Source of the DNA: Solirubrobacterales bacterium 67-14 | GTDB lineage: Bacteria; Actinomycetota; Thermoleophilia; Solirubrobacterales; 70-9 | Direction: 5' to 3' | Length of the DNA: 64,000 nt | Assembly (NCBI GenBank): GCA_001897355.1 | Contig: MKST01000011.1 | Span: 798,460 to 862,459, forward strand | In this document: positions 26,331 to 46,104 of the stretch, one piece after another | Position numbering within the stretch: position 1 is the first letter of the stretch | Layout: the number at the start of each line of letters is the position of its first letter | Program-made: the position numbers and the translations under genes | The notes under the pieces: model-generated | The model's database searches: none | Told to the model about the DNA's origin: nothing | Seen by the model: the letters and a program-made list of their open reading frames with translations, nothing else

Positions 26331-27131
26331 TCAGCCGGCGACTGGGAGCGGCGGTGGCTCGGGGTAATCCACGCGAACGAAGAAAAGCCCTTGCGGCGGG
26401 GCGGTCACCCCGGCGTCGGGTCGCTCAGCGCCTTTCAGGAGATCCTCGAAATTGGCGAGGCTGCGGCTGCCGTCGGCCACTTCGAGCATGGTGCCGACCA
26501 GGATCCGGACCATGTTCCGCATGAATGAGTCGCCGGTGATCCAGAACTGGAGGGTGTCCCCGCCGGCGGTCGCGCCGGTGGCTGGGTCGGTCAGCCCTTC
26601 CTCGTCGAGCCATCTCGCCGAGTGGATGATCCGTTTGAAACGCTTGTGGTAGGTCTCGGTCGGCGTGAAGGCGGTGAAGTCATGCTCACCGGTCAGCCCC
26701 TTCGCACAGGCGTCCAGCAGCGCGCGGTCGATCGGCCGGGATACCCACCAGGCGCGGTCTACGGCGAAGGGGCTGTCGGGACGGCGGGTGAGCACGCGGT
26801 AGCAGTAGGTGCGAGAGACGGCATCCCGGCGGGCGTCGAAGCCGGAGACCGGGGTCACGGCCCGTACCGCGATCCCGCGCGGGGTCAGGCCGTTGAGGCT
26901 GCGGACGATCATCGGCGGCATCTCGCCGCCGAACTCGAAGCTGGCGACCTGGCCCAGCGCGTGGACCCCGGCGTCGGTACGCCCGGCCACCGTCAGTTCG
27001 ACCGGCTCGTCAACCCTCAGGGCGATCTTCAGGGCTTCTTCCAGCCGCGCCTGGACCGTGTCCACGCCCTCCTGCTTCGCCCAGCCCCGGAACGCGGAGC
27101 CGTCGTACTCGATGTCGAGGCGCCAGTTCAG
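26331..27131 (-). CDS. truA: tRNA pseudouridine synthase A, probable CTG start
   Basis: Product of 266 aa if begun at CTG 27129-27131, in CTGA overlap with the stop of the NHL-repeat gene. The first ordinary start in frame, GTG 27063-27065, would remove the conserved TruA N-terminus [19 protein letters not shown], including the strand that positions the active site, so it cannot be right. The catalytic Asp is in GRTDAGVH. Later motifs DFTAFTP and [19 protein letters not shown] are standard. It modifies U38-U40 in tRNA anticodon stems. Confidence 0.9.
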
Positions 27132-28663
27132 CGGCGGATGTAGAGGATCTTCTTGCCGTGGTTGCCCCAGGCCTGGGCAGTGATCGCCACCTTGCCACGG
27201 GCACGTTTGCTGAAGAAGATCGTGACCGTGCCGGTGACCGTCCAGCCGGGGGTGATGATCTTGGTGTTGAAGCCGCGCTTGACCACCACGCTGGGCCGGC
27301 CGGAGAGGGCCTTCTTGCCCATGTAGGTGAAGACGTTGCGAGCGCGCAGCGTGCCGCTGTTCTTGATCGAAACCTTCATGTTGACCGCTTCGCCGGGATG
27401 GACGACGCTGCCGCCGCCCTCTTTCCAGACCTTGACCGGCTTGATGATCGCCTGCTTGGGTTTGCCCTTGCCACCGCTCTTCTTGCCGCCGTTACCGCCG
27501 TTGCCGCCATTGCCGTTATTTCCACCGTTGCCGCCGTTGCCACCGTTGCCGCCATTCCCACCTGGGTTGATGACGGGGCCGGTCGTGGTACCGGTCGGCC
27601 CCGTCGGGTTGGTCGGACCGGTCGGGCCCGTGGGGTTGGTCGGCCCGGTGGGGCCGGTCGGGCTGGTCGGGCCCGTGGGGCCGGTGGGCTGGGTCGGCCC
27701 GGTGGGGCCGGTCGGACCGGTCGGGCCGCTCGGCGGATCCCAGCGGTCGACCCGGTTGTTCCAGTAGTTGGCGACGTTGATCGTGGTTCCGGGGCCGATC
27801 GCAACCGAGGTCGGCTGCGAGGTGACGAACGGCGAGGGCACCGGCCACTCGCTGAGGAAGGCTCCGCCGGTCGAAAGCCGCTGGACCCGGGAGTTGCCCT
27901 GGTCGGCGACGAAGAGGGTATTGCCGGAACCGATCGCCAGCCCGGCCGGGTTGTTGACCTGGCCCTGCGCGGAACCGAAGGTGCTCCAGACCCCGAGCAC
28001 GTTGCCGTTGGAGTCGCTCTTGACCAGTCGACTGTTGCCGGAATCGGAGATGTAGACGTTGCCCCCGGGATCGGTGGCCACGCCGAGCGGACCGGAGATG
28101 CCGCCGATGTCGTTGGCTCCCGAATCGAAGGTGAACTCCGACCCGCACCAACCCCAGGCATTGCATTTGACGATCCGGTTGTTGTCGGTGTCGGCGACGT
28201 AGACGTTGCCGCCGCCGTCGACCGCGACGTCGCCCGGCTGCTTGAACTGGCCGAGGCCGCTGCCGAAGGTGCCCCATTCGGTCTGGTAGCTGCCGTTCGG
28301 GTAGAAGCGCTGGATCCGGTTGTTGCCGGTGTCGGCGACGAAGATCGCGCCACCGGACTCGACCGAGATCCCACCCGGCGAGTTGAACTGTGCCTGGCCG
28401 TTGCCACCGTTGCCGAAGGCCATCAGCTGGGTCCCGGTCGGGCTGTACTTGACGACCCGGTTGCCGACCCGCTCGGTCACGTAGAGGTTGCCGCTGCTGT
28501 CGGTGGCGACGCCATAGGGGCCGTTGCCGTAGATCGGGGTACCCCAGGCGGCCTGGGCCGGGGATGCGCCGGCAAGCAGCAGCACGAAGGCAGCCGCGAA
28601 CGCCGCGAGTACCGACGCGAGTGAAGTCGCCCTATTTGAGTACAGCCCCCTGTTGAAATTCAA
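27128..28663 (-). CDS. Exported NHL-repeat protein with Pro/Thr/Gly repeat stalk
   Basis: Product of 511 aa from TTG 28661-28663. Signal peptide ends GASPAQA. Residues about 35-310 are NHL propeller blades ([59 protein letters not shown]). Then come xPT-GPT-GPT triplets (about 314-362), a Gly/Asn-rich run, a basic hinge ([11 protein letters not shown]), and a C-terminal beta domain of about 100 aa ([20 protein letters not shown] ... TITAQAW-like). This looks like a surface propeller on a flexible stalk. TATACT at 28701-28706 (minus) is a good -10. The stop overlaps the truA start. Confidence 0.82.
27484..27563 (-). repeat. Gly-Gly-Asn coding repeat
   Basis: Tandem GGN codon triplets (GGNGGNGGNGGNNGNGGN) inside the NHL protein, a low-complexity linker between the Pro/Thr stalk and the C-terminal domain. 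Confidence 0.8.
27594..27729 (-). repeat. Nonapeptide xPT-GPT-GPT coding repeat
   Basis: Near-perfect tandem 27-nt units in the NHL gene. Every third triplet carries Q, S or N in place of Gly, giving a nine-residue period rather than an unbroken collagen Gly-X-Y register. Confidence 0.8.
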
Positions 28664-31673: not shown

Positions 31674-34600
31674 TCAACGCCGCGCGGTGACAGGTACCTT
31701 GCGAGAAACCTTCTGATTGCCGACGGTCAGCTGGATTCGCAGTTTGGTCTTGCGGGTTCCCTTCTTCACCTTGCGAACCCGGAGCGGCAGCTTGACGGTG
31801 GTCTCTTGACCCGGCGCCAACGCCTTCACCGGCCGGCATGGCACCTTGCGGGCCAGCCGCTTCGGGTCGTTCAGGCAGAGCTTGCCGGCTTGGCTTGGGG
31901 CTTCGCCGAAGTTTCTGATCGTCACCTTGATCAACTTGGGCTTCTGACCCTTGAGGGTCAGCCGGGCCGGCTTGGCCTGGATCGCGAGGCGAGACGATCC
32001 GGGGCTGGGCGCGGCCTTGCCAGCGCCCGACAGGCTGCTACGACGGGTCGTCAGCCCATCACCTTCGATCACGAGCTCGGCCTTCTTCTCGCCCACGGAT
32101 CCAGGAGTGAACACGACGCTGAAACTGCAGGCCGCCGCGGGGGTGAGCGGCTTGGCCACACAGGACTCCGAATCGGCCAGCTCGAACTCGGCGCGGTCGG
32201 ACCCCGTGAGACCGATCGAGCCGACCGTGGCCGTGTCCGAACCGCTTGAGGTGACTACGAACGCCCGGGATGCCGTGGTACCCGTTTCGACCTGACCGAA
32301 GTGATGAATGCCCGGGTTGAGGCTGATCTCCTTGATCAGAATCACCGGGGGTTCGAGGCCGGTGCCGGCGAGCGACGCCTGCTTCGGGGCGAGACCCTCG
32401 GCGGCCACGGTCAGGGTCGCCTGACGTGGGCCGGTCGCTCCAGGTGTAAAGGTCACGCTAATCTCGCATTCGTCGCCCGAGGCCATCTCGGCCAGGCAGG
32501 CGCTCTGACCGGAGAGGCTGAAGTCGCCGGCGGCGGCACCGGTTACGGCGATCGAGTCGATGTGAGCCGGGGCATCGCCGGTCGAGTAGATGCGGAACGT
32601 CTCGGCCGCCGAGGTGACCCCGAGGACGGTGACTGGGAAGGCCTTCTCGCTCGGGTCGAGCTCGATCTCCGGGTTGGGATCAGGATCCGGGTCGTCCTGA
32701 GCCTGGCCTGTGCCAGAGAGCGACGACGTGCGGTCGCTTGTTCCCTGGGTCGTGACCCGCAGGGTCGCGGAACGAGCGCCCACCGCCGAAGGTGAGAAGG
32801 TGACCGTCACCTGGCAGTTCCCACCCACCGGGATGTTTGCGTCCACGCATGAGCCGGCATCGGTCACCGTGAAGTCGCCGGGGTGGGTTCCGGCCACGGC
32901 GATCGAGGTGATCTTCGCGGTCGCTTCCCCGTTCGAACTGATGGTGAATGTAGCCGGCTCGCTTGCGCGTCCGACCGTAACCCCCGGGAAAACGTGGGTG
33001 GAGGGTGTGAGGCTGACTTCAACAGTCGGATCTGGCTCGGATGGCGTCTGGCCGGTGCCGAATATCGAAGTCGACTTCGCGGTCAGGCCTTCAGCCTCGA
33101 CTCGCACGGTTGCCGATCGCTGGCCCGTGGCGGTGGGGGTGAAGAGAACCTGAAACTGGCAGGTCTGGTTCGGGTCGATCTCGACTCGGCATTGGTCCGC
33201 GCCGGCCACCGAAAAGTCGGCGGCCGCGGTTCCCGCGATCGAGATCGAACCGATCATGACCGGGGCGTTGCCGGTCGACTTGACGGTGAAGGCCTTGGGG
33301 GCGGACGTCTGTCCAATCTGGGTCGCGGCGAAACCGACCAACGGCGTTGGGCTCAGCGTGAATGCCGGGACCAGCGGTTCGGCGACGGCGAACTGCCTGG
33401 TGGCGACCTCACTTTCGTTGCCGGCCCTGTCGATCGCCTTCACCGCGAAGGTGTGCTGACCGGGAGCGAGATCCGACTCGGGGGCCGATAGCGATTCGCA
33501 TTCTTCGAAGGCCGCACCGTCGAACCGGCAGAAAGTGGCCTCTGGATTGCTGTCTTCCACCTCGAAGCTGAACTGGGGGCGAGTCTCGCTGGTCGCTCCT
33601 TCCGGACCGCCGGTGATCGTGACCACCGGGGCGACCGAGTCGACAGTCAGCACCCTGGTCGCCCAGTCACCGGTGTTCCCTGCCTGATCGGTGGCCCGGA
33701 CGCGGATCAGATGCTGGCCCTCGGTGAGCTCGACTGCCTCCGACTGGCTGTACGAGGTCCAAGTCGAGTCACCATCGAGCTCAGTCTCGAAGGTGACACC
33801 ACCCGTTTCCACGCTGGCCTCACGGGTGACCGTCACGACCGTCTCGGGGGTGACGGGACCGCCGACATCGAGCGAGGTGATGGTGGGTGCGGACTGGTCG
33901 ACGGTGATCACCGTCTGGGCGTGATCGGTCCCGGCGATTCCGTCGCGGACCGAGCGGGCGATGATCAGATGCTCGCCTTCCTGCAGGTTCTCCAGCTCGA
34001 TCCTGGAACGGCCGAGCAGCGGGGTGACCTGCTCCGGCTCCTCGGCTTCCAGCCAGGTTTCCCCTTCGTCGAGCGAAACTTCGACCCGATCTAGGTGCCG
34101 ACCGATCGATTCGATCACGAAAGTGGCTTCGTTCAGCTTGGTGTATGGACCGTCCTCGGGACCGATCCAGGTCGATTTGGGCTCGATCTGATCGACATCG
34201 AACTCGACTTCGCCGAGCGCTTCGACGGAGGTGACCGGGGTTCCGTCGGGGAGGGTGACCGTCAGTGAGTCCACGGAGATCGTCCTATCGGCTTCGGCCA
34301 GATCCTCGGCGGGGATCTCGAAGCTGATCTCGCCCGCGCCTTCGGCCAGGTCCTTGCGGCTGGAAAAGCTGCCGGCATCAACCGAGCCGCCTTCCGAGGT
34401 CAGCTTGGCCGAGGCCAGCACCTCCAGGGGCCGGGCGGCTTCGACCGGCACCGAGAGGGTCACCGACGAAGCAGCTTCCTCGATCTCTTCGATCCGGGGC
34501 GTGCCGGAAACGGTTACCGCGGGGTCCTCCACCGACACATATAGGGAGGCGAGTTGGTCACCCTTTTCGGCGAATCCAAGCCATTGGCCGGAGCCCAGCT

Positions 34601-36539
34601 CCAGGGTTCCGGTGAACGTCCCGTCCCCGGCGGCCTGGTCGGCTCCGTTGCCGTTGTCGTTCAGGTTTCCGGTGACCTCTTCCTGGTCGACCGAACGGGA
34701 CACCCTGACCTGGATCGTGCCGCCACCTACCGGCGAGGCGACGCTGACAGTCACCGGACCAGAAGCGACCGGTGTCTCAGGGGCCAACTGTTGGAATGCG
34801 TCTTCGTCTCCGGAGTCGAGCGTCTGCATGCTCTTGGCGGACTTCGCCGCAACCTTTGAGGCCGACCCTCCGGAGCCCTTCCCGGGGGTGGTCAGCATCT
34901 TCTCCGCCTTGTCGGCGATCTCGGTCAATGCCTTTGAGTCGTTGACGATCGACTTCCGGCTCGGGTCACCGTCACTGTTGTGGTGGCGACCATCGCCCCA
35001 GCTTCCGTACTTCTGGCAGGAACCGGTGACAGCAGGCACACTCATGAAGGTCGTCCATACACCCGGCGTCGCGCAGGCGCTGACCGTCGAAACAGTGCCA
35101 TCTCCATCGGTCGGGAGATTCCCGCTGATCACCGTCAACGGAGACGTCAACACCGAGGGGGTCGCGTGGCCACTTCCGGCAAAGGTGTGCAACTCTCGCG
35201 CCTGCTTGCGATTGGCATCTGAGTTCAGGTCGCGCATACCGAACCAGCTGCTCATGCGGGCCCAGGCACGTGCTTGGGCGAGTCCTCCGCTGACCACCTC
35301 ACCGTCGAGGTACGTCTCCCCACCTAGGTGAGGAGTGGCCACCGTGGTAACGCCGACAACCTTGGGCCCACCATCCATTCGCGGCAATGAGAGACGCGCG
35401 AGCAGCCCACCCATGGAGTGGCCGATGATCGCGACGTTCTTGATGTCGCGATGAGCTTCGAGCCATTTCAACCACTTCGCGACATACCGAGCTTCTGAGA
35501 CCGGATCATTGACCGACGAGATCTGACGGATCGCCCCGTCGACTGAACTGGGGTCCTTCGCAGCTTGGGTCGGAAGCTGGACAACCCGGATTCCGTCCCT
35601 CACCAAGCGCTGATAGAGAAGCCCGAAGGCCTGCCCCTCCTCGTATTGGAGCACGGTCCCGAAATCGTCTTTCCGTGCCTCACCGTCACAGGCGTCTGGA
35701 TAGACAGAGCAGAGAGACCCTGGCTGACCGATCTCAGCTAGAGAATCCAAGAACTTGGCGTTCGACTTCAAGCCTTGCAGCAACACCACTGCGCTAGTTG
35801 GCGGCATGATACCGATCGGAACTGTTGTTGGATAATACTCTGCGCTGAGGTCGACATCGAAATAGGATCTCCCTCGTCCTGGCAACCCAAGCACCGTGTT
35901 GTACGTCTCGTCCATTGACATGCCCAATAGACCAACGCAACCTTGAATCGGTGGAAATTCGACGTCATCATCGACCAGGCGCCCTTTTCCTTGCTGATCT
36001 ATCTGCCTTCCCGAGAATCCGTGAGATCCATTGTTGGTAGATAGGCCAAGCTCGATCGGATCGACTAGTGAACCAATCCAGCAATTGTCGCCTACATCCA
36101 GCATAGAAGATCCAGATAGCTTCGAGATCCGGATCATAACCCTCATGTTCAGACTGAAGCTACCGTTCAGTTGATTATAGACTCCAGTAACAACTGAATT
36201 TGGCAAGGGAACGACGTCCATACCTATCACGCCGTGTACATTTCCGATGGTAGGAATATCTACATCCACCGGACTCTCGATACGTTGGATAGAGAGCGCC
36301 TCCGCATCTACGGTGAATGTACCTGGGAAGCCACCTCCTACTCCCAGCGCCCAAGGTGAAGTTGGTTCTGACGCATAAGGCGGGAAACCTTCAGCCGTTG
36401 ACGATGGGAAGTCGAGACCCTGTGTGGGTCCCGATATGGTGGCAGACCTCGCTGGGCCCGCGGCAGCCAAAAAGACAGTCGAGATGCCAACCACGCTCAG
36501 CGCAGTGCGGAGGACTGATGACAAGGACTCAATGGTCAT
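31674..36539 (-). CDS. Large exported lipase-like protein with Ig-like and HYDIN/choice-of-anchor-D repeats
   Basis: Product of 1621 aa. Signal peptide residues 1-32 (ending GPARSA). Residues about 240-510 form an alpha/beta hydrolase of the PGAP1/lipase sort, with nucleophile elbow IIGHSMGGLLAR near residue 373 and TVATPHLGG after it. Then come beta-sandwich parts, Ig-like domains (near 960-1055, with DRAGNES), four successive choice-of-anchor-D/HYDIN-like domains (FTPTATGQRSATV, FSPSAVGARSATL, FTPGATGPRQATL, FTPGSVGEKKAEL), and a basic C-terminal beta domain. It likely acts at the cell surface on esters or lipids. The first 250 codons and the 237-bp upstream gap are clearly AT-richer than the rest, suggesting a chimeric or acquired 5' part. 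It separates map from rpmJ. Confidence 0.82.
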   Translation of the reverse strand: MTIESLSSVLRTALSVVGISTVFLAAAGPARSATISGPTQGLDFPSSTAEGFPPYASEPTSPWALGVGGGFPGTFTVDAEALSIQRIESPVDVDIPTIGNVHGVIGMDVVPLPNSVVTGVYNQLNGSFSLNMRVMIRISKLSGSSMLDVGDNCWIGSLVDPIELGLSTNNGSHGFSGRQIDQQGKGRLVDDDVEFPPIQGCVGLLGMSMDETYNTVLGLPGRGRSYFDVDLSAEYYPTTVPIGIMPPTSAVVLLQGLKSNAKFLDSLAEIGQPGSLCSVYPDACDGEARKDDFGTVLQYEEGQAFGLLYQRLVRDGIRVVQLPTQAAKDPSSVDGAIRQISSVNDPVSEARYVAKWLKWLEAHRDIKNVAIIGHSMGGLLARLSLPRMDGGPKVVGVTTVATPHLGGETYLDGEVVSGGLAQARAWARMSSWFGMRDLNSDANRKQARELHTFAGSGHATPSVLTSPLTVISGNLPTDGDGTVSTVSACATPGVWTTFMSVPAVTGSCQKYGSWGDGRHHNSDGDPSRKSIVNDSKALTEIADKAEKMLTTPGKGSGGSASKVAAKSAKSMQTLDSGDEDAFQQLAPETPVASGPVTVSVASPVGGGTIQVRVSRSVDQEEVTGNLNDNGNGADQAAGDGTFTGTLELGSGQWLGFAEKGDQLASLYVSVEDPAVTVSGTPRIEEIEEAASSVTLSVPVEAARPLEVLASAKLTSEGGSVDAGSFSSRKDLAEGAGEISFEIPAEDLAEADRTISVDSLTVTLPDGTPVTSVEALGEVEFDVDQIEPKSTWIGPEDGPYTKLNEATFVIESIGRHLDRVEVSLDEGETWLEAEEPEQVTPLLGRSRIELENLQEGEHLIIARSVRDGIAGTDHAQTVITVDQSAPTITSLDVGGPVTPETVVTVTREASVETGGVTFETELDGDSTWTSYSQSEAVELTEGQHLIRVRATDQAGNTGDWATRVLTVDSVAPVVTITGGPEGATSETRPQFSFEVEDSNPEATFCRFDGAAFEECESLSAPESDLAPGQHTFAVKAIDRAGNESEVATRQFAVAEPLVPAFTLSPTPLVGFAATQIGQTSAPKAFTVKSTGNAPVMIGSISIAGTAAADFSVAGADQCRVEIDPNQTCQFQVLFTPTATGQRSATVRVEAEGLTAKSTSIFGTGQTPSEPDPTVEVSLTPSTHVFPGVTVGRASEPATFTISSNGEATAKITSIAVAGTHPGDFTVTDAGSCVDANIPVGGNCQVTVTFSPSAVGARSATLRVTTQGTSDRTSSLSGTGQAQDDPDPDPNPEIELDPSEKAFPVTVLGVTSAAETFRIYSTGDAPAHIDSIAVTGAAAGDFSLSGQSACLAEMASGDECEISVTFTPGATGPRQATLTVAAEGLAPKQASLAGTGLEPPVILIKEISLNPGIHHFGQVETGTTASRAFVVTSSGSDTATVGSIGLTGSDRAEFELADSESCVAKPLTPAAACSFSVVFTPGSVGEKKAELVIEGDGLTTRRSSLSGAGKAAPSPGSSRLAIQAKPARLTLKGQKPKLIKVTIRNFGEAPSQAGKLCLNDPKRLARKVPCRPVKALAPGQETTVKLPLRVRKVKKGTRKTKLRIQLTVGNQKVSRKVPVTARR

Positions 36540-40010: not shown

Positions 40011-40189
40011 CAGGCCTCCTCCACCTCTACCAGGTGGGAGACCACCTTGAGCTGACCCTGGAGCTGGGGGGAATCCTCGCGCTCGACCGTGCGGCCGCGC
40101 TTGCCCAGGCCCAGGGCGGCAAGGGTGCCACGCTGGCTCGGGTTCGTGTTGATGTCAGAACGAATCTGGGTGATCGAGAGCTTGGCCAT
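40010..40189 (-). CDS. rpmD: 50S ribosomal protein L30
   Basis: Product of 59 aa: [20 protein letters not shown], then GTLAALGLGKRGRTVEREDS and a short acidic end. Matches L30 in length and in the LGLGKRG motif. Its ATG overlaps the rpsE TGA by 1 nt, and its TGA overlaps the rplO ATG by 1 nt. Confidence 0.94.
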   Translation of the reverse strand: MAKLSITQIRSDINTNPSQRGTLAALGLGKRGRTVEREDSPQLQGQLKVVSHLVEVEEA

Positions 40190-41112
40190 CAGGAGTTGTT
40201 CTCCTCCGCCTTCTCGGCATCCTCGGCCACCTCTTCGGTCGCCTGGACTTCTTCCGCCGCCTCAACGACGGTCTCGGACTGCGCCTCTTCGGCGGCGACC
40301 TCGGCCTCTACCTCAGAGGCAGCGGGTCCGGTCGGCTCCGGAGCCGGCGTGTCGGCAGTTTCCTCGGCAGCCTTCTCCTCGACCGCGGCGATGTCGGCCG
40401 GAGCTTCCGCCGGAGCCTCACTGGCTTCCTCGGCCGGTGCCTCAGCAGCTTCCTCGGCCGGAGCCTCGGTCGCGGCAGCGGCGTCGGCGGCTTCCTCGAC
40501 GGCAGCAGCGCTCTCGGCATCAGGCGCACCACCATTGGTGGAGCCCTCGTCCGCGGCTGCTTCCGCCTCCGCTTCGGCTTCCTTGTCGATGCCGAGAACC
40601 TCGGTGATCGTCAGGCCACGCAGTTCGGCGACTTCCTCCGGCCGGCGCAGACGGATGATGCCGTCCATGGTCGCCTTGACCAGGTTGATCGGGTTCTGGG
40701 TGCCGACCGACTTGGTGAGGATGTCGCGCACGCCGCCCAGCTCGAGCACGGCACGGACGCCGCCGCCGGCGATCACGCCGGTTCCCGGGCTGGCCGGGCG
40801 CAGCACCACGTGACCGGCGCCGTAGCGGCCGATGATCTTGTGGGTGATCGTGTCCCCGTACTTGGGGATGCGAATCAAGTTCTTGCGGGCGTTCTCGACG
40901 GCCTTCTGGATCGCGAGCGGAACCTCGCGGGCCTTGCCGTAGCCGATCCCGACGACCGACTCTTCATCGCCGACAGCGACCAGGGCCGTGAACGAGAAAC
41001 GACGACCGCCCTTGACCACCTTGGCCACGCGGTTGATCTCGATCACACGCTCCTGCAGGTCGAGCCCCTTCGGGCTGACCATCTCAATGCGGGCTGTATC
41101 CATTCCCTTCAT
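40189..41112 (-). CDS. rpsE: 30S ribosomal protein S5 with 130-residue acidic C-terminal extension
   Basis: Product of 307 aa, nearly twice the usual length. Residues 1-177 are a normal S5 ([50 protein letters not shown]). Residues 178-307 are low-complexity Ala/Glu/Pro with no Lys or Arg except very near the end ([20 protein letters not shown]). The frame is intact and codon use matches the core, so it is probably translated. S5 lies at the mRNA entrance; an acidic tail there might influence mRNA or partner binding (inference). Similar tails occur on L5 and S17 in the same operon. Confidence 0.95.
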
Positions 41113-41139
41113 TTCAGCTCTTCACCGTACTGGAGTTCC

Positions 41140-41493
41140 CTAGAACTCCAGTCCACCCTCTCTCGCACCTTCGGCCAGGGCCTTGACCCTGCCGTGGTAG
41201 CGGTAACCGCTTCGGTCGAAGACACAAGTCTCGACGCCTGCCTTCTTTGCACGTTCGGCCAGCAGCTCGCCGGCCTTCTTCGCCTGCTCGGTACCCCGCA
41301 GCTCCTTGAGCTCCGGTTCGGTCCAGTTGGCCGCGGCCAGCGTCTTGCCATCGATGTCGTCGATGAGCTGCGCGAAGACGCCGCGGTTGGAGCGGTACAC
41401 GGACAGACGGGGCCGCTGGGCGGTGCCGGACACCTTGGCCCGGACCCGGTAGCGACGCCGCTGCCGGCGCTGGCGCTTGGTAATGACGGTCAT
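41140..41493 (-). CDS. rplR: 50S ribosomal protein L18
   Basis: Product of 117 aa: basic start ([18 protein letters not shown]), [16 protein letters not shown], and end [20 protein letters not shown]. It binds 5S rRNA. Overlaps rplF by 4 nt. Confidence 0.96.
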
Positions 41494-42023
41494 ACTCGCT
41501 TACCGACCTTCCTGGCGACGTGTTCGCCGCGGTAACGGATGCCCTTGCCCTTGTAGGGCTCCGGCGGACGGCTCTCGCGGATGTTCGCCGCGACCTGACC
41601 GACCTTCTGCTTGTCGATCCCCTTGACGATGATCTCCGTCGGCTGGGGAAGTTCAAATTCGATGCCCTCCGGCGCCTCGATCGAGACCGGATGGGAGTAG
41701 CCCAGGGCCAGTTCCAGGTTCTTGCCCTTGGCGGCCGCACGGTAACCGACGCCCTGGATCTCCAGCACCTTGGTGTACCCGTCGGTGACGCCGACGATCA
41801 TGTTGGCGATCAGGCTGCGGGTCAGGCCGTGGAGCGCCCGGTGGTTGGGGCGGTCCGTCGGACGCTCGACCGTGATCGCGCCGTCCTCCGTCTTCACGGT
41901 CATGTCGGTCGAGACTTCCTGGGTGAGCTCGCCCTTCGGGCCCTTGACCTTGATCAGTCCGGGCTTGATGTCGATCTCGACCCCATCGGGGAGATCGATC
42001 GGCTTTTTTCCAATTCGACTCAT
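41490..42023 (-). CDS. rplF: 50S ribosomal protein L6
   Basis: Product of 177 aa: [17 protein letters not shown] at the start and [20 protein letters not shown] near the end, both typical. Near the factor-binding site of the 50S. 10 nt after rpsH. Confidence 0.97.
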
Positions 42024-42033
42024 TGATTCCTCG

Positions 42034-42429
42034 TTACCAGACGTAGGCGAGCACTTCGCCGCCGACGCCTTCCTTCTTGGCTTCGTGGCCGGTCATCACG
42101 CCGTGCGAGGTCGTGATGATCGCCGTGCCGGTGCCACCGTGGACCCGGGGAACCTCACCGTGGCCGACGTAGCGACGACGGCCGGGCCGGGAGACCCGCT
42201 CGAGGCCGGTGATCACCGGCTGGTGGTCCTTCGTGTACTTGAGCTCGACCGTGATCTTCTCGCCCACGTCGGCAGCGCTCTTCTCGAAGCCCGAGATGTA
42301 GCCCTGCTCGGTGAGGATGCGGGAGACCTCCAGCTTCAGCTTCGAGCTGGGCACCTCGACGGTGGCCAGGCCGGAACTGAGGCCGTTGCGGATCCGGGTC
42401 AAGTAGTCGGAGATGGGATCGGTAAGCAT
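42034..42429 (-). CDS. rpsH: 30S ribosomal protein S8
   Basis: Product of 131 aa: [21 protein letters not shown] at the start and [20 protein letters not shown] at the end. Binds helix 21 of 16S rRNA and in many bacteria represses its own operon. 4 nt after rpsN. Confidence 0.97.
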
Positions 42430-42433
42430 CAGG

Positions 42434-42619
42434 TCACCAACTCGACTTCGTCATGCCGGGGATGTAGCCCTCGTGGGCGGCCTCGCGCAGGCAGATCCGG
42501 CAGATGCCGAACTTCCGGTAGTACGCCCGGGGGCGTCCGCACCGGCGGCACCGGTTGTACTCGCGGGTCGAAAACTTCGCCTTGCGCTGCTGGCGCACCT
42601 TCTGTGACGTCTTGGCCAT
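42434..42619 (-). CDS. rpsN: 30S ribosomal protein S14 type Z (zinc-binding)
   Basis: Product of 61 aa, the short zinc form: [20 protein letters not shown] gives four Cys as C-x2-C-x12-C-x2-C. The ATG overlaps the rplE TAA by 1 nt. Confidence 0.97.
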
Positions 42620-43380
42620 TAGGCCTGGTCCTCCTGCGTTTCTTCGGCCCCGGCCTCGTCGGCGGGAGTCTCATTTTCGTCTGCTGCTTCTGCTTCCTCT
42701 GCGGGAGCCTCTTCAGCTTCGGCCTCGGCCGGAGCTTCTTCGGCAGCAGCCTCGGGGGCTGATGCCTGTTCGGCTTCCTCTTCGGCACCCTCGGGGACCG
42801 GGCGGCCTTCCTTCGCGAAAGGCATGCCCAGGCCGAGCAGCAGCTCGAAAGCCTCGTAGTCCGTCGGGGCGGACGTGGTGATCGTGATGTCGAGACCGCG
42901 GGTCTCGTCGACCGAGTCGTAATCGATCTCGGGGAAGATCAGCTGTTCGCGGACGCCCATCGAGTAGTTGCCGCGGCCGTCGAACGAAGTCGCCTTGAGG
43001 CCGCGGAAGTCACGGATGCGCGGGATCGCGATCGAGGTCAGCCGGTCGAGGAACTCCCACATCCGGGCACCCCGCAGGGTCACCGAAGCACCGACCGGCA
43101 TGCCTTCACGCAGCTTGAACGAGGCGATCGACTTCTTGGCGATCCGGGTGTTCGGCATCTGACCGGCGATCGTGGCGAGTTCGCCGATCGCCTTCTCGCG
43201 TGCCTTGGAGTCGACCGATGAGCCGAGGCCCATGTTCAGCGTGATCTTTTCGAGGCGCGGCGCCCGCATCGGGGTCGAGTACCCGAACTTCTGCATCAGC
43301 TGCGGGAGCACCTCGTTGTTGTAGGTGTCCCGGAGCCGGGGCGGCGGCGCTGCCTGCTGGGTTGTCGTTGCTGCTTCCAT
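42619..43380 (-). CDS. rplE: 50S ribosomal protein L5 with acidic C-terminal extension
   Basis: Product of 253 aa. Residues 1-197 are L5 ([59 protein letters not shown]). Residues 198-253 are an added Glu/Ala-rich tail ([20 protein letters not shown]). L5 binds 5S rRNA and the P-site tRNA elbow. Same wording of the tail as in S5 and S17. A Thr/Gln/Pro leader of 15 residues precedes the core. Confidence 0.95.
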
Positions 43381-43386
43381 GGGTTC

Positions 43387-43716
43387 CTAAATGGCCTCGC
43401 CGGTGCGCTTGGAGAAGCGCTGGCGCTTGCCTTCGTCGGTGGTGCGAATGCCGACGCGAGTCGGCCGGTTGTCAGAGGGGTCGACCAGGGCCACGTTGGA
43501 AACGTGGATCGGACCCTCCATCTCGATGATCCCGCCTTCCTTGCCCTGGCCGCGCCCGTCGGGCGAAGGCTGGGCGCGCTGGTGGCGCTTGATCATGTTG
43601 ATGTCCTCAACGTACACGGTTTCGGCCTTGGGGTCGGTCCTGAGGACCTTGCCCTGCTTGCCCTTCTCCTTGCCGCTGATGACCTGGACCTGATCGTCGG
43701 TGCGAATGCGCATCAC
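43387..43716 (-). CDS. rplX: 50S ribosomal protein L24
   Basis: Product of 109 aa: KOW motif region [20 protein letters not shown], then MIKRHQRA and [19 protein letters not shown]. An assembly initiator of the 50S. Overlaps rplN by 4 nt. Confidence 0.96.
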
Positions 43717-44081
43717 AGCACCTCCGGGGCGAGCGAGATGATCTTCATGAAGTCGCGGTCACGCAGCTCACGGGCGACCGGTCCGAAGATACGGGTGCCA
43801 CGCGGGTTGTTCTGCGCGTCGATCAGCACGGCTGCGTTCTCGTCGAAGGCGATGTAGGTGCCGTCGTTGCGGCCGAGTTCCTTCTTGGTCCGCACGATCA
43901 CGGCCTGGACGACCTCGCCCTTCTTGACGTTGCCCTGCGGGCTCGCCTGCTTGACGGTCGCGGTGATCACGTCACCGATCGAGCCGTACTTGCGATGCGA
44001 GCCGCCCTTGACGCGGATGCAGAGGAGTTCGCGGGCGCCGGAGTTGTCGGCGACGCGGAGTCTGGATTCCTGCTGGATCAC
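43713..44081 (-). CDS. rplN: 50S ribosomal protein L14
   Basis: Product of 122 aa: [20 protein letters not shown] and [20 protein letters not shown], highly typical. Contacts 16S rRNA in bridges. 3 nt after rpsQ. Confidence 0.98.
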
Positions 44082-44084
44082 CTT

Positions 44085-44735
44085 CTACCTCGCCTTCTCC
44101 ACTACCTCGACCAGGCGCCAATGCTTGGTCTTGGAGAGCTTGCGGGTCTCGATCACGCGGACCACGTCGCCCTCGTGGGCTTCGTTCTGCTCGTCGTGCG
44201 CGTGGATCTTGTGCGTCTGACGGACGATCTTCTCGTAGACCGGGTGGCGGCGGGCGGTGTCGATCTGGACCGTGATGGTCTTGTCGGTCTTGTCGGAGAC
44301 GACCGTGCCCTGACGCTCCTTCGGCTTGCCGGTACGGGTCTTCTCGGCGCGCGGCGTGCCGACGCCGTCACCCTTCCGCTCGGCCTTGATCTCCTCGCGG
44401 CGCTTGCGGCGGACCGCAGCCTTCTTCGCGCGGGCAGCCTCACGGTCGGCCTGGCGCTGCTCGGGGCTGCGCTCTGGGCCGGCCGGGCCGGACTCGCGGG
44501 ACTTGAGGACGCGTCGGCGTTCCTTCCAGGGGAGTTCGGCCAGAGGATCTTCCTCGGCGGGCGCTTCTTCAGCGGCCTCGGGCGCAGCTTCTTCGGCGGG
44601 AGCCTCTTCAGCCGCAGCCTCGGGGGCTTCCTCGGCCGGAGTCTCCTCTACCGGAGCTTCAGCAGCGGCAGCATCAGTTGCCTCTTCGGCCGCTGCCTCT
44701 ACGTTTTCTGTGTTTTCAGTTTCTTCTTCTGACAT
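44085..44735 (-). CDS. rpsQ: 30S ribosomal protein S17 with long acidic-then-basic N-terminal extension
   Basis: Product of 216 aa against the usual 80-90. Residues 1-67 are Glu/Ala/Pro ([20 protein letters not shown]), residues 68-137 are strongly basic ([20 protein letters not shown]), and residues 138-216 are a complete S17 ([40 protein letters not shown]). Internal in-frame starts in the basic part are not evident, and the ATG lies 6 nt after the rpmC stop. The charge-segregated leader could interact with rRNA or proteins during assembly (inference). Confidence 0.94.
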
Positions 44736-45373: not shown

Positions 45374-46104
45374 CAGCGACGGCCTCCCCTGCGGTCATCG
45401 CCACGGCCGCCGCGGCGGTCGTTGCGACGATCGGGACGATCGGCCGGCGGCTCGTCCGAGGTCCGCGAGGACTCGAAACCCTCCGGCATGACCTCGCCCT
45501 TGTTGATCCAGCACTTGACGCCGATGCGGCCGGTGCCGGTCTTCGCCTCGACGAATCCGTAATCGATGTCGGCGCGCAGGGTGTGGAGCGGCACGCGGCC
45601 GTCCGAGTAACCCTCGGTGCGGGCCATCTCGGCCCCGCCCAGGCGGCCGGAGATCTGAACCTTGACGCCCTTGGCGCCGGAGCGCATGGCGGAGGTCAGG
45701 GCACGCTTCATCGCGCGGCGGAAGGCGACGCGGTTCTGGAGCTGCTCGGCGATCGACTGCGCGACAAGCTTGGCGTCGAGCTCGGGGCGCTTGACTTCGC
45801 GGATGTTCACCTTCACCGGCGAGCCGGTGATCTTGTGAAGGTCCTTGCGGAGCGCGTCGACCTCACTACCCGACTTGCCGATCACGATGCCCGGACGGGC
45901 GGTGTGGATGTCCACGGCGACCTCGCCGCGGCGCTCGATCGTGATGTCGGAAAGCCCGGCGTGGGCAAGCTTGTTCTCGATGTGGTCCCGGATCGCCAGG
46001 TCCTGCATCAGCAGGTCCGAAAACTCCTTGTCGGCGAACCAGTTGGACTTCCAATCGTGGATGTAGCCGACGCGGAAGCCTTCGGGATGGATCTTCTGTC
46101 CCAT
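45373..46104 (-). CDS. rpsC: 30S ribosomal protein S3
   Basis: Product of 243 aa: [22 protein letters not shown] domain with GKSGSEVD, and [12 protein letters not shown]. The last 30 residues are an Arg/Asp/Gly tail ([20 protein letters not shown]), RGG-like and unlike the acidic tails of S5 and L5. S3 helps unwind mRNA at the entry site. 7 nt after rplV. Confidence 0.97.

Follow-up and report, generated by a model that had tools for sequence, protein, structure and literature searches.

Ribosomal proteins of bacteria tend to be compact and basic. We analysed a 64-kb stretch of DNA (C11:798460-862459; "the window" denotes the whole of it) within the 3.23-Mb genome of Solirubrobacterales bacterium 67-14, in which the ribosomal proteins uS5, uL5 and uS17 carry long acidic terminal arms rich in Ala, Glu and Pro. 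An earlier examination of the letters alone (the sequence-only reading) had pointed to these three segments, and the measured lengths of 131 residues in uS5, 57 in uL5 and 67 acidic plus 70 basic residues in uS17 bear it out, as do the intact frames and the Pfam domains of all three proteins, which were matched end to end or nearly so. The features are the following:

40189..41112, minus strand: uS5 gene, 307 residues, with a core (residues 1-176) and an acidic tail (177-307); Pfam PF00333 and PF03719 complete
40192..40584, minus strand: acidic C-terminal tail of uS5, 131 residues, net charge -39; mostly low values of the predicted local distance difference test (pLDDT)
40474..40521, minus strand: uS5 tail motif 1, residues 198-213, kept in near relatives
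40354..40401, minus strand: uS5 tail motif 2, residues 238-253, with a low-confidence helix at 240-250
40192..40317, minus strand: uS5 tail motif 3, from SEVEAEV to the end, residues 266-307, with a low-confidence helix at 281-305
42619..43380, minus strand: uL5 gene, 253 residues; Pfam PF00281 and PF00673 complete
42622..42792, minus strand: acidic C-terminal tail of uL5, 57 residues, net charge -24
44085..44735, minus strand: uS17 gene, 216 residues with a core of 79; Pfam PF00366 complete
44535..44735, minus strand: acidic block of uS17, residues 1-67, net charge -26; pLDDT about 45 over residues 1-60
44325..44534, minus strand: basic block of uS17, residues 68-137, net charge +13; near-constant length in relatives (coefficient of variation, CV, 0.08)
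44373..44465, minus strand: predicted basic helix of uS17, residues 91-121; AlphaFold 10-residue block means of 91-98 over residues 91-120

To place these arms in their lineage we used 141 sequences, in which uS5, uL5, uS17 and uS3 were read where present: the window, 41 loci from named records and 99 further loci (9 of the same family, 25 of the order, 25 of the class and 40 of the phylum). These data are genome sequences, mostly metagenome bins; two such bins, HKST-UBA63 and HKST-UBA66, have a uS5 core 100% identical to that of the window. Counts for the named group omit L030, which has a broken uS5 frame, and the distant L031-L042, and counts per taxonomic group exclude frames cut by a contig end. 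Since L025 and L052 represent the same genome, order-level counts were redone on distinct sequences; the correlations of charge and GC still contain this pair.

The acidic sign of the arms recurs throughout the order Solirubrobacterales. Among uS5 tails of at least 25 residues, 27/27 in the named group, 9/9 in the family, 19/20 in the order and 13/13 in the class are acidic; on distinct sequences of the order, 56/61 reach this length and 55 of the 56 are acidic. Outside the class 9/40 uS5 tails reach 25 residues, five of them acidic. The uL5 tail is more narrowly distributed: of the tails of at least 25 residues, 21/21 in the named group, 6/6 in the family and 11/11 in the order are acidic (38/61 distinct order sequences reach that length, all 38 acidic), and the class outside the order has four long tails among 25, none acidic. 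Both blocks of uS17 are present in 52 of 54 distinct order sequences, the exceptions, L070 and L074, having the basic block only; in the class outside the order the acidic block occurs in 10 of 24 members, every one of which also has the basic block. For uS17 the start was taken as the first possible codon, by which some extensions outside the order (e.g. L089, L114, L139) are over-long.

The arms hold conserved elements. Among the 16 uS5 sequences of the near clade, three conserved tail motifs are separated by variable linkers that are gapped at 43% of compared positions. AlphaFold gives most of the tail a pLDDT below 70, and the two helices predicted there, at 240-250 and 281-305, are of low confidence and coincide with motifs 2 and 3. 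Pooled ratios of non-synonymous to synonymous change (dN/dS) are 0.18-0.29 for the motifs, 0.25-0.44 for the remaining tail and 0.04-0.08 for the core (16 sequences), and for uS17 (9 sequences) 0.12-0.15 in the acidic block, 0.17-0.29 in the basic block and 0.09-0.14 in the core; all of these values are rough because synonymous sites are near saturation and the alignments are of low complexity. A conserved short motif in a disordered linker, the pattern of a disordered docking arm, is thus present in uS5, and in uS9 (below) by motif only. The uL5 tails of 21 sequences (20 distinct) share a charged segment around RAEAExAALEQLKEENPEAY, probably helical, which occurs in 6/9 family, 3/25 order, 12/27 named, 0/25 class and 0/39 phylum sequences; it follows the core and ends LEQLKEENPEAY (L052, L053, L054, L056, L057 and L058 among many relatives). 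The segment is lost in the window's clade, where acidic filler takes its place. In four class members outside the order (L084, L089, L096, L101) the uL5 tail is short and strongly basic (+8 to +10), opposite in sign to that of the window.

In an AlphaFold model of uS17 built on a 37-sequence alignment, residues 1-60 are unstructured (block means 41-47) and helices are predicted at 70-80 and 91-121. The acidic block varies in length (CV 0.41), unlike the basic block. Codon 1 is the sole in-frame ATG, GTG or TTG before codon 191, and initiation at an ordinary internal codon could therefore not bypass the extension. At its core-proximal end the basic block aligns with the mycobacterial uS17 N-terminus; no solved chain is related to the 70-residue block at E<=1, and when the uS17 model was compared with known folds, the 50 matches listed were uS17-type chains of ribosome structures.

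Three roles for the uS17 helix as a stand-in for another protein were considered. No match to bS21 was found in 21/21 order genomes searched (this genome and 20 relatives), and the position of bS21 on the ribosome differs from that of the uS17 helix. This candidate was dropped, as bS21 is also reported missing in Mycobacterium smegmatis and not found in Cutibacterium acnes (PMC10085706). Replacement of bS20 is ruled out by the presence of bS20 in this genome, and replacement of the bS16 tail fails, given that a basic block and a bS16 tail coexist in G099, G112 and G118.

Like uS17, bS16 is a lower-body protein of the 30S subunit. It was read in 81 genomes, 77 of which yielded the traits of both proteins: 38 have only an acidic uS17, 14 only a bS16 tail of at least 25 residues, two have both and 23 neither. 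The exclusion has a Fisher P of 0.0005 overall, uncorrected for kinship, and of 0.008 in the order, where such bS16 tails occur in 3/28 genomes with both traits read; no bS16 tail was found in the genomes read from the class outside the order. One family of the order spans the range, from a uS17 charge of -16 with a bS16 tail of 21 residues (G148) through -10 with 85 residues (G118) to -2 in G099 and G112, with bS16 tails of 105 and 99 residues and charges of -17 and -15. Only the acidic part of the uS17 extension appears to trade with the bS16 tail. That an acidic arm moved from uS17 to bS16 in this family is suggestive only, because it concerns one lineage and there is no overall correlation of the two traits within the order (rho 0.11, P 0.58).

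The trait extends beyond the three proteins named by the sequence-only reading: uL10, uS9, bS1 and uS2 of this genome have acidic segments too, and the charge of five arms sums to about -180. Its bL17 (117 residues) and bS16 (84 residues) have no such tail. The wording EEAPAEEA that was said to be shared by all three is found in uL5 and uS17; uS5 has EAPAEEA twice. A codon pattern for EEAPAEEA has six matches in the 3.23-Mb genome (four in uL10, one in uL5, one in uS17), against none for the reversed pattern. A scan of 489 kb, made up of the window, a further 18.6 kb beyond it, the loci of uS2 and bS16 and 400 kb sampled systematically from C11, looked for six-frame open reading frames (ORFs) of at least 100 residues in which some 40-mer is at least 75% A/E/P/D and has a charge of -8 or lower. 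Seven of 1555 ORFs qualified, namely uL5, uS5, uS17, uL10, uS2, bS1 and uS9, all ribosomal; the uL10 and uS2 loci had been fetched deliberately. The systematic 400 kb contributed two matches, bS1 and uS9, among 359 called genes, and the probability that both would be ribosomal is 5e-5 to 7e-4 assuming 3 to 10 ribosomal genes there. The additional proteins and the uS3 tail are located as follows:

L158:7213-8049, minus strand: uS9, N-terminal extension of about 155 residues with a PPGADLEP motif that recurs in relatives
L170:982-2172, minus strand: uS2, C-terminal extension comprising a long charged Arg/Glu/Lys stretch, eight copies of PHPQAV and an acidic end
45376..45483 of the window, minus strand: uS3 C-terminal tail, 36 residues, Arg/Gly/Asp-rich, net charge +2

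In the order, uS9 arms of at least 50 residues and a charge of -10 or lower occur in 26/30 loci; the four uncounted are L172, L191 and L192, with over-long starts, and L179, which is cut. The script used for motifs missed 3/30 uS9 loci by its pattern; 24 of the 27 proteins it read hold PG[A/E/M][D/H]L in the acidic extension, typically as IPGADLE or PPGADLEP, and the motif was not seen in L176, L183 and L191. This genome's sample, 463,167 six-frame residues that include uS9 itself, has a single occurrence of a strict form of the motif. Acidic uL10 tails of at least 25 residues were found in 27/30 order loci, and uL10 of this genome ends in a long, Ala-rich one. As a guess, the His-Pro repeat of uS2 could bind metal. 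The uS3 tail, described earlier as RGG-like and basic, is indeed Arg-rich and is nearly neutral rather than basic; its charge does not offset that of the other arms (rho +0.33 with uS17, +0.22 with uS5), which gives no support to a charge balance between tails.

The DNA that encodes the arms contains tandem repeats of 12-39 nt, which makes slippage a likely source of the arms. The acidic arms have a GC content at third codon positions of 0.46-0.72 vs 0.88-0.94 in the cores. AGGAGG is rarer in the arms than in synonymous shuffles (uS5 19 vs 36, uL5 103 vs 122, uS17 35 vs 59); none of 300 shuffles was as low in any of the three arms, with the reservation that related sequences are not independent. 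Two purine-rich sites lie in terminal codons:

40201..40207, minus strand: GGAGGAG near the 3' end of the uS5 gene, within its last codons; probable Shine-Dalgarno sequence for the next gene, which overlaps
42630..42635, minus strand: AGGAGG within the last codons of the uL5 gene; probable Shine-Dalgarno sequence for uS14, whose gene overlaps

That uL5 repeatedly ends in QED or QEG may be due to the Shine-Dalgarno sequences in such terminal codons.

We consider these segments to be lineage-specific, disordered acidic arms that would act as flexible docking arms combined with a steric and electrostatic brush, a function to which we give a probability of about 0.5. The Ala/Glu/Pro filler would be a soluble linker, repelled by RNA and hence extended in solvent, that may have grown by slippage of short repeats and been kept acidic by selection. 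The arms would hold short conserved elements off the surface, among them the uS5 motifs, the uS9 PGA(D/H)L and, in many relatives, the uL5 segment, while the uS17 arm would be joined to its core by the added basic helix, which probably binds 16S ribosomal RNA (rRNA) near h7/h9. The arm sites would lie near the messenger RNA entry and exit, the central protuberance and the stalk base. The tails are genuine, outside complete cores and largely disordered by prediction, and thus could decorate the ribosome surface as the sequence-only reading suggested; its proposal of partner docking gains indirect support from the conserved motifs, docking itself being a candidate function.

Several observations weigh against this interpretation. 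Arm length varies widely; the uL5 tail is short in 23/61 order-level sequences, and the window's own uL5 tail is without the conserved segment of its relatives. The dN/dS values are biased low for the reasons given above. The same scan applied to 400 kb of the relative G091 returned 3/1391 ORFs, uS17, a GyrA tail and a helicase-like protein, two of the three not ribosomal; strict restriction to ribosomal proteins thus holds in this genome's sample and fails in G091, and the ribosomal bias is strong in the former and weaker in the latter. The trade between uS17 and bS16 comes from one family, and the phylum sample by itself is not significant (P 0.32). Contact with rRNA, partner docking, the brush effect, the position of the arms and their retention in mature ribosomes are inferred from sequence and prediction.

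A more ambitious form of the docking interpretation, which we hold only tentatively, is an acidic corona in which the disordered arms of at least seven proteins would present lineage-specific docking motifs to partners in translation or transcription, with a new rRNA-binding helix in uS17 and an arm movable from uS17 to bS16. If an arm can so move, selection would keep the place on the ribosome, not the protein.

Tolerated filler is a possible though doubtful alternative, in which slippage lengthens the free ends of abundant surface-exposed proteins and whatever sticks to RNA or aggregates is weeded out, leaving Ala, Glu and Pro in arms that have no job. The tandem repeats, the variable uS17 acidic block and the gapped uS5 linkers fit this explanation. 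GC pressure alone fails as a driver, as uS5 tails become less acidic with rising GC (rho +0.49) and the trends for uL5 and uS17 are not significant. Neutral filler accounts for the length variation but not for the conserved motifs, the uS17 basic block with its predicted helix and steady length, or the restriction of the segments to ribosomal proteins in the sampled part of this genome. With their motifs, the uL5 segment and a length-constrained basic block containing a confidently predicted helix, the arms are not plain filler.

An improbable explanation, concerning mainly uS17, is a built-in chaperone in which the acidic block shields the basic, aggregation-prone part until it meets rRNA. 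Both blocks do co-occur in the order (53/55 with the duplicate pair included), and outside it the 10 acidic members of the class all have the basic block, basic-only forms also existing. However, acidic charge does not scale with basic charge (rho +0.31, the wrong direction, in 55 uS17 sequences), a result that also lends no support to the counter-ion shielding proposed by the sequence-only reading; L070 and L074 have the basic block without the acidic one, and the arms of uS5, uL5 and uL10 have no adjoining basic block of the uS17 kind. That the segments are misassembled, untranslated or cut off after synthesis is very unlikely even for data drawn largely from metagenome bins, given that many separately assembled relatives keep them in open frames, which also makes sequencing error unlikely, that uS17 has no alternative start before codon 191 and that non-synonymous change stays below synonymous change; proteolysis after translation is still conceivable.

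Archaeal and eukaryotic stalk P-proteins have acidic C-terminal tails, which the long acidic Ala-rich tail of uL10 in this genome resembles; unlike in that system, most arms of this genome sit on other proteins, and the P-protein terminal motif was not seen in the 30 uL10 tails read. Closer parallels come from actinobacterial ribosome structures. In C. acnes the proteins described as extended include uS5, uS9, uS17 and uL5, and several of the extensions are disordered in the map, in part or entirely; the uS9 N-extension has 46 residues, the uL5 C-extension 31 and the bS16 tail 65, and the uS17 N-terminus contacts h9 (PMC10085706). The same four proteins carry terminal segments outside the conserved core in the window's genome; unlike those of C. 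acnes, its arms are longer, acidic and Ala/Glu/Pro-rich, its bS16 is tailless and its uS17 has an added acidic block and predicted helix (PMC10085706). M. smegmatis has extensions on uS17, uS5 and bS16 (PMC5876184, PMC10085706), that of uS17 being an N-terminal extension of about 13 residues in contact with h7 and h9 (PMC5876184). This extension aligns with the part of the window's basic block that is nearest the core, and the window has 137 extension residues in place of about 13 (PMC5876184).

The kind of feature is therefore known, since extensions have been published for both organisms; what sets the present case apart is the length and acidic Ala/Glu/Pro composition of the arms, together with the uS17 helix and the motifs. 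A literature search with limited coverage of journals and terms returned no title describing arms of this composition in bacterial ribosomal proteins. Long acidic arms retained at several sites by an order would demonstrate that flexible arms for recruitment can evolve on the surface of the bacterial ribosome. For proteomics and cryo-electron microscopy, concrete targets are the conserved motifs, the helix of uS17 and the trade between uS17 and bS16.

Two further proteins in the window were noted by eye. A 1621-residue protein (31674-36539, minus strand), between the uS13 gene region and map and hence next to ribosomal genes, has a probable signal peptide and repeat-like regions, and a 511-residue protein (27128-28663, minus strand), downstream of the bL17 gene, combines beta-propeller-like repeats with a GPTGPT collagen-like stretch.

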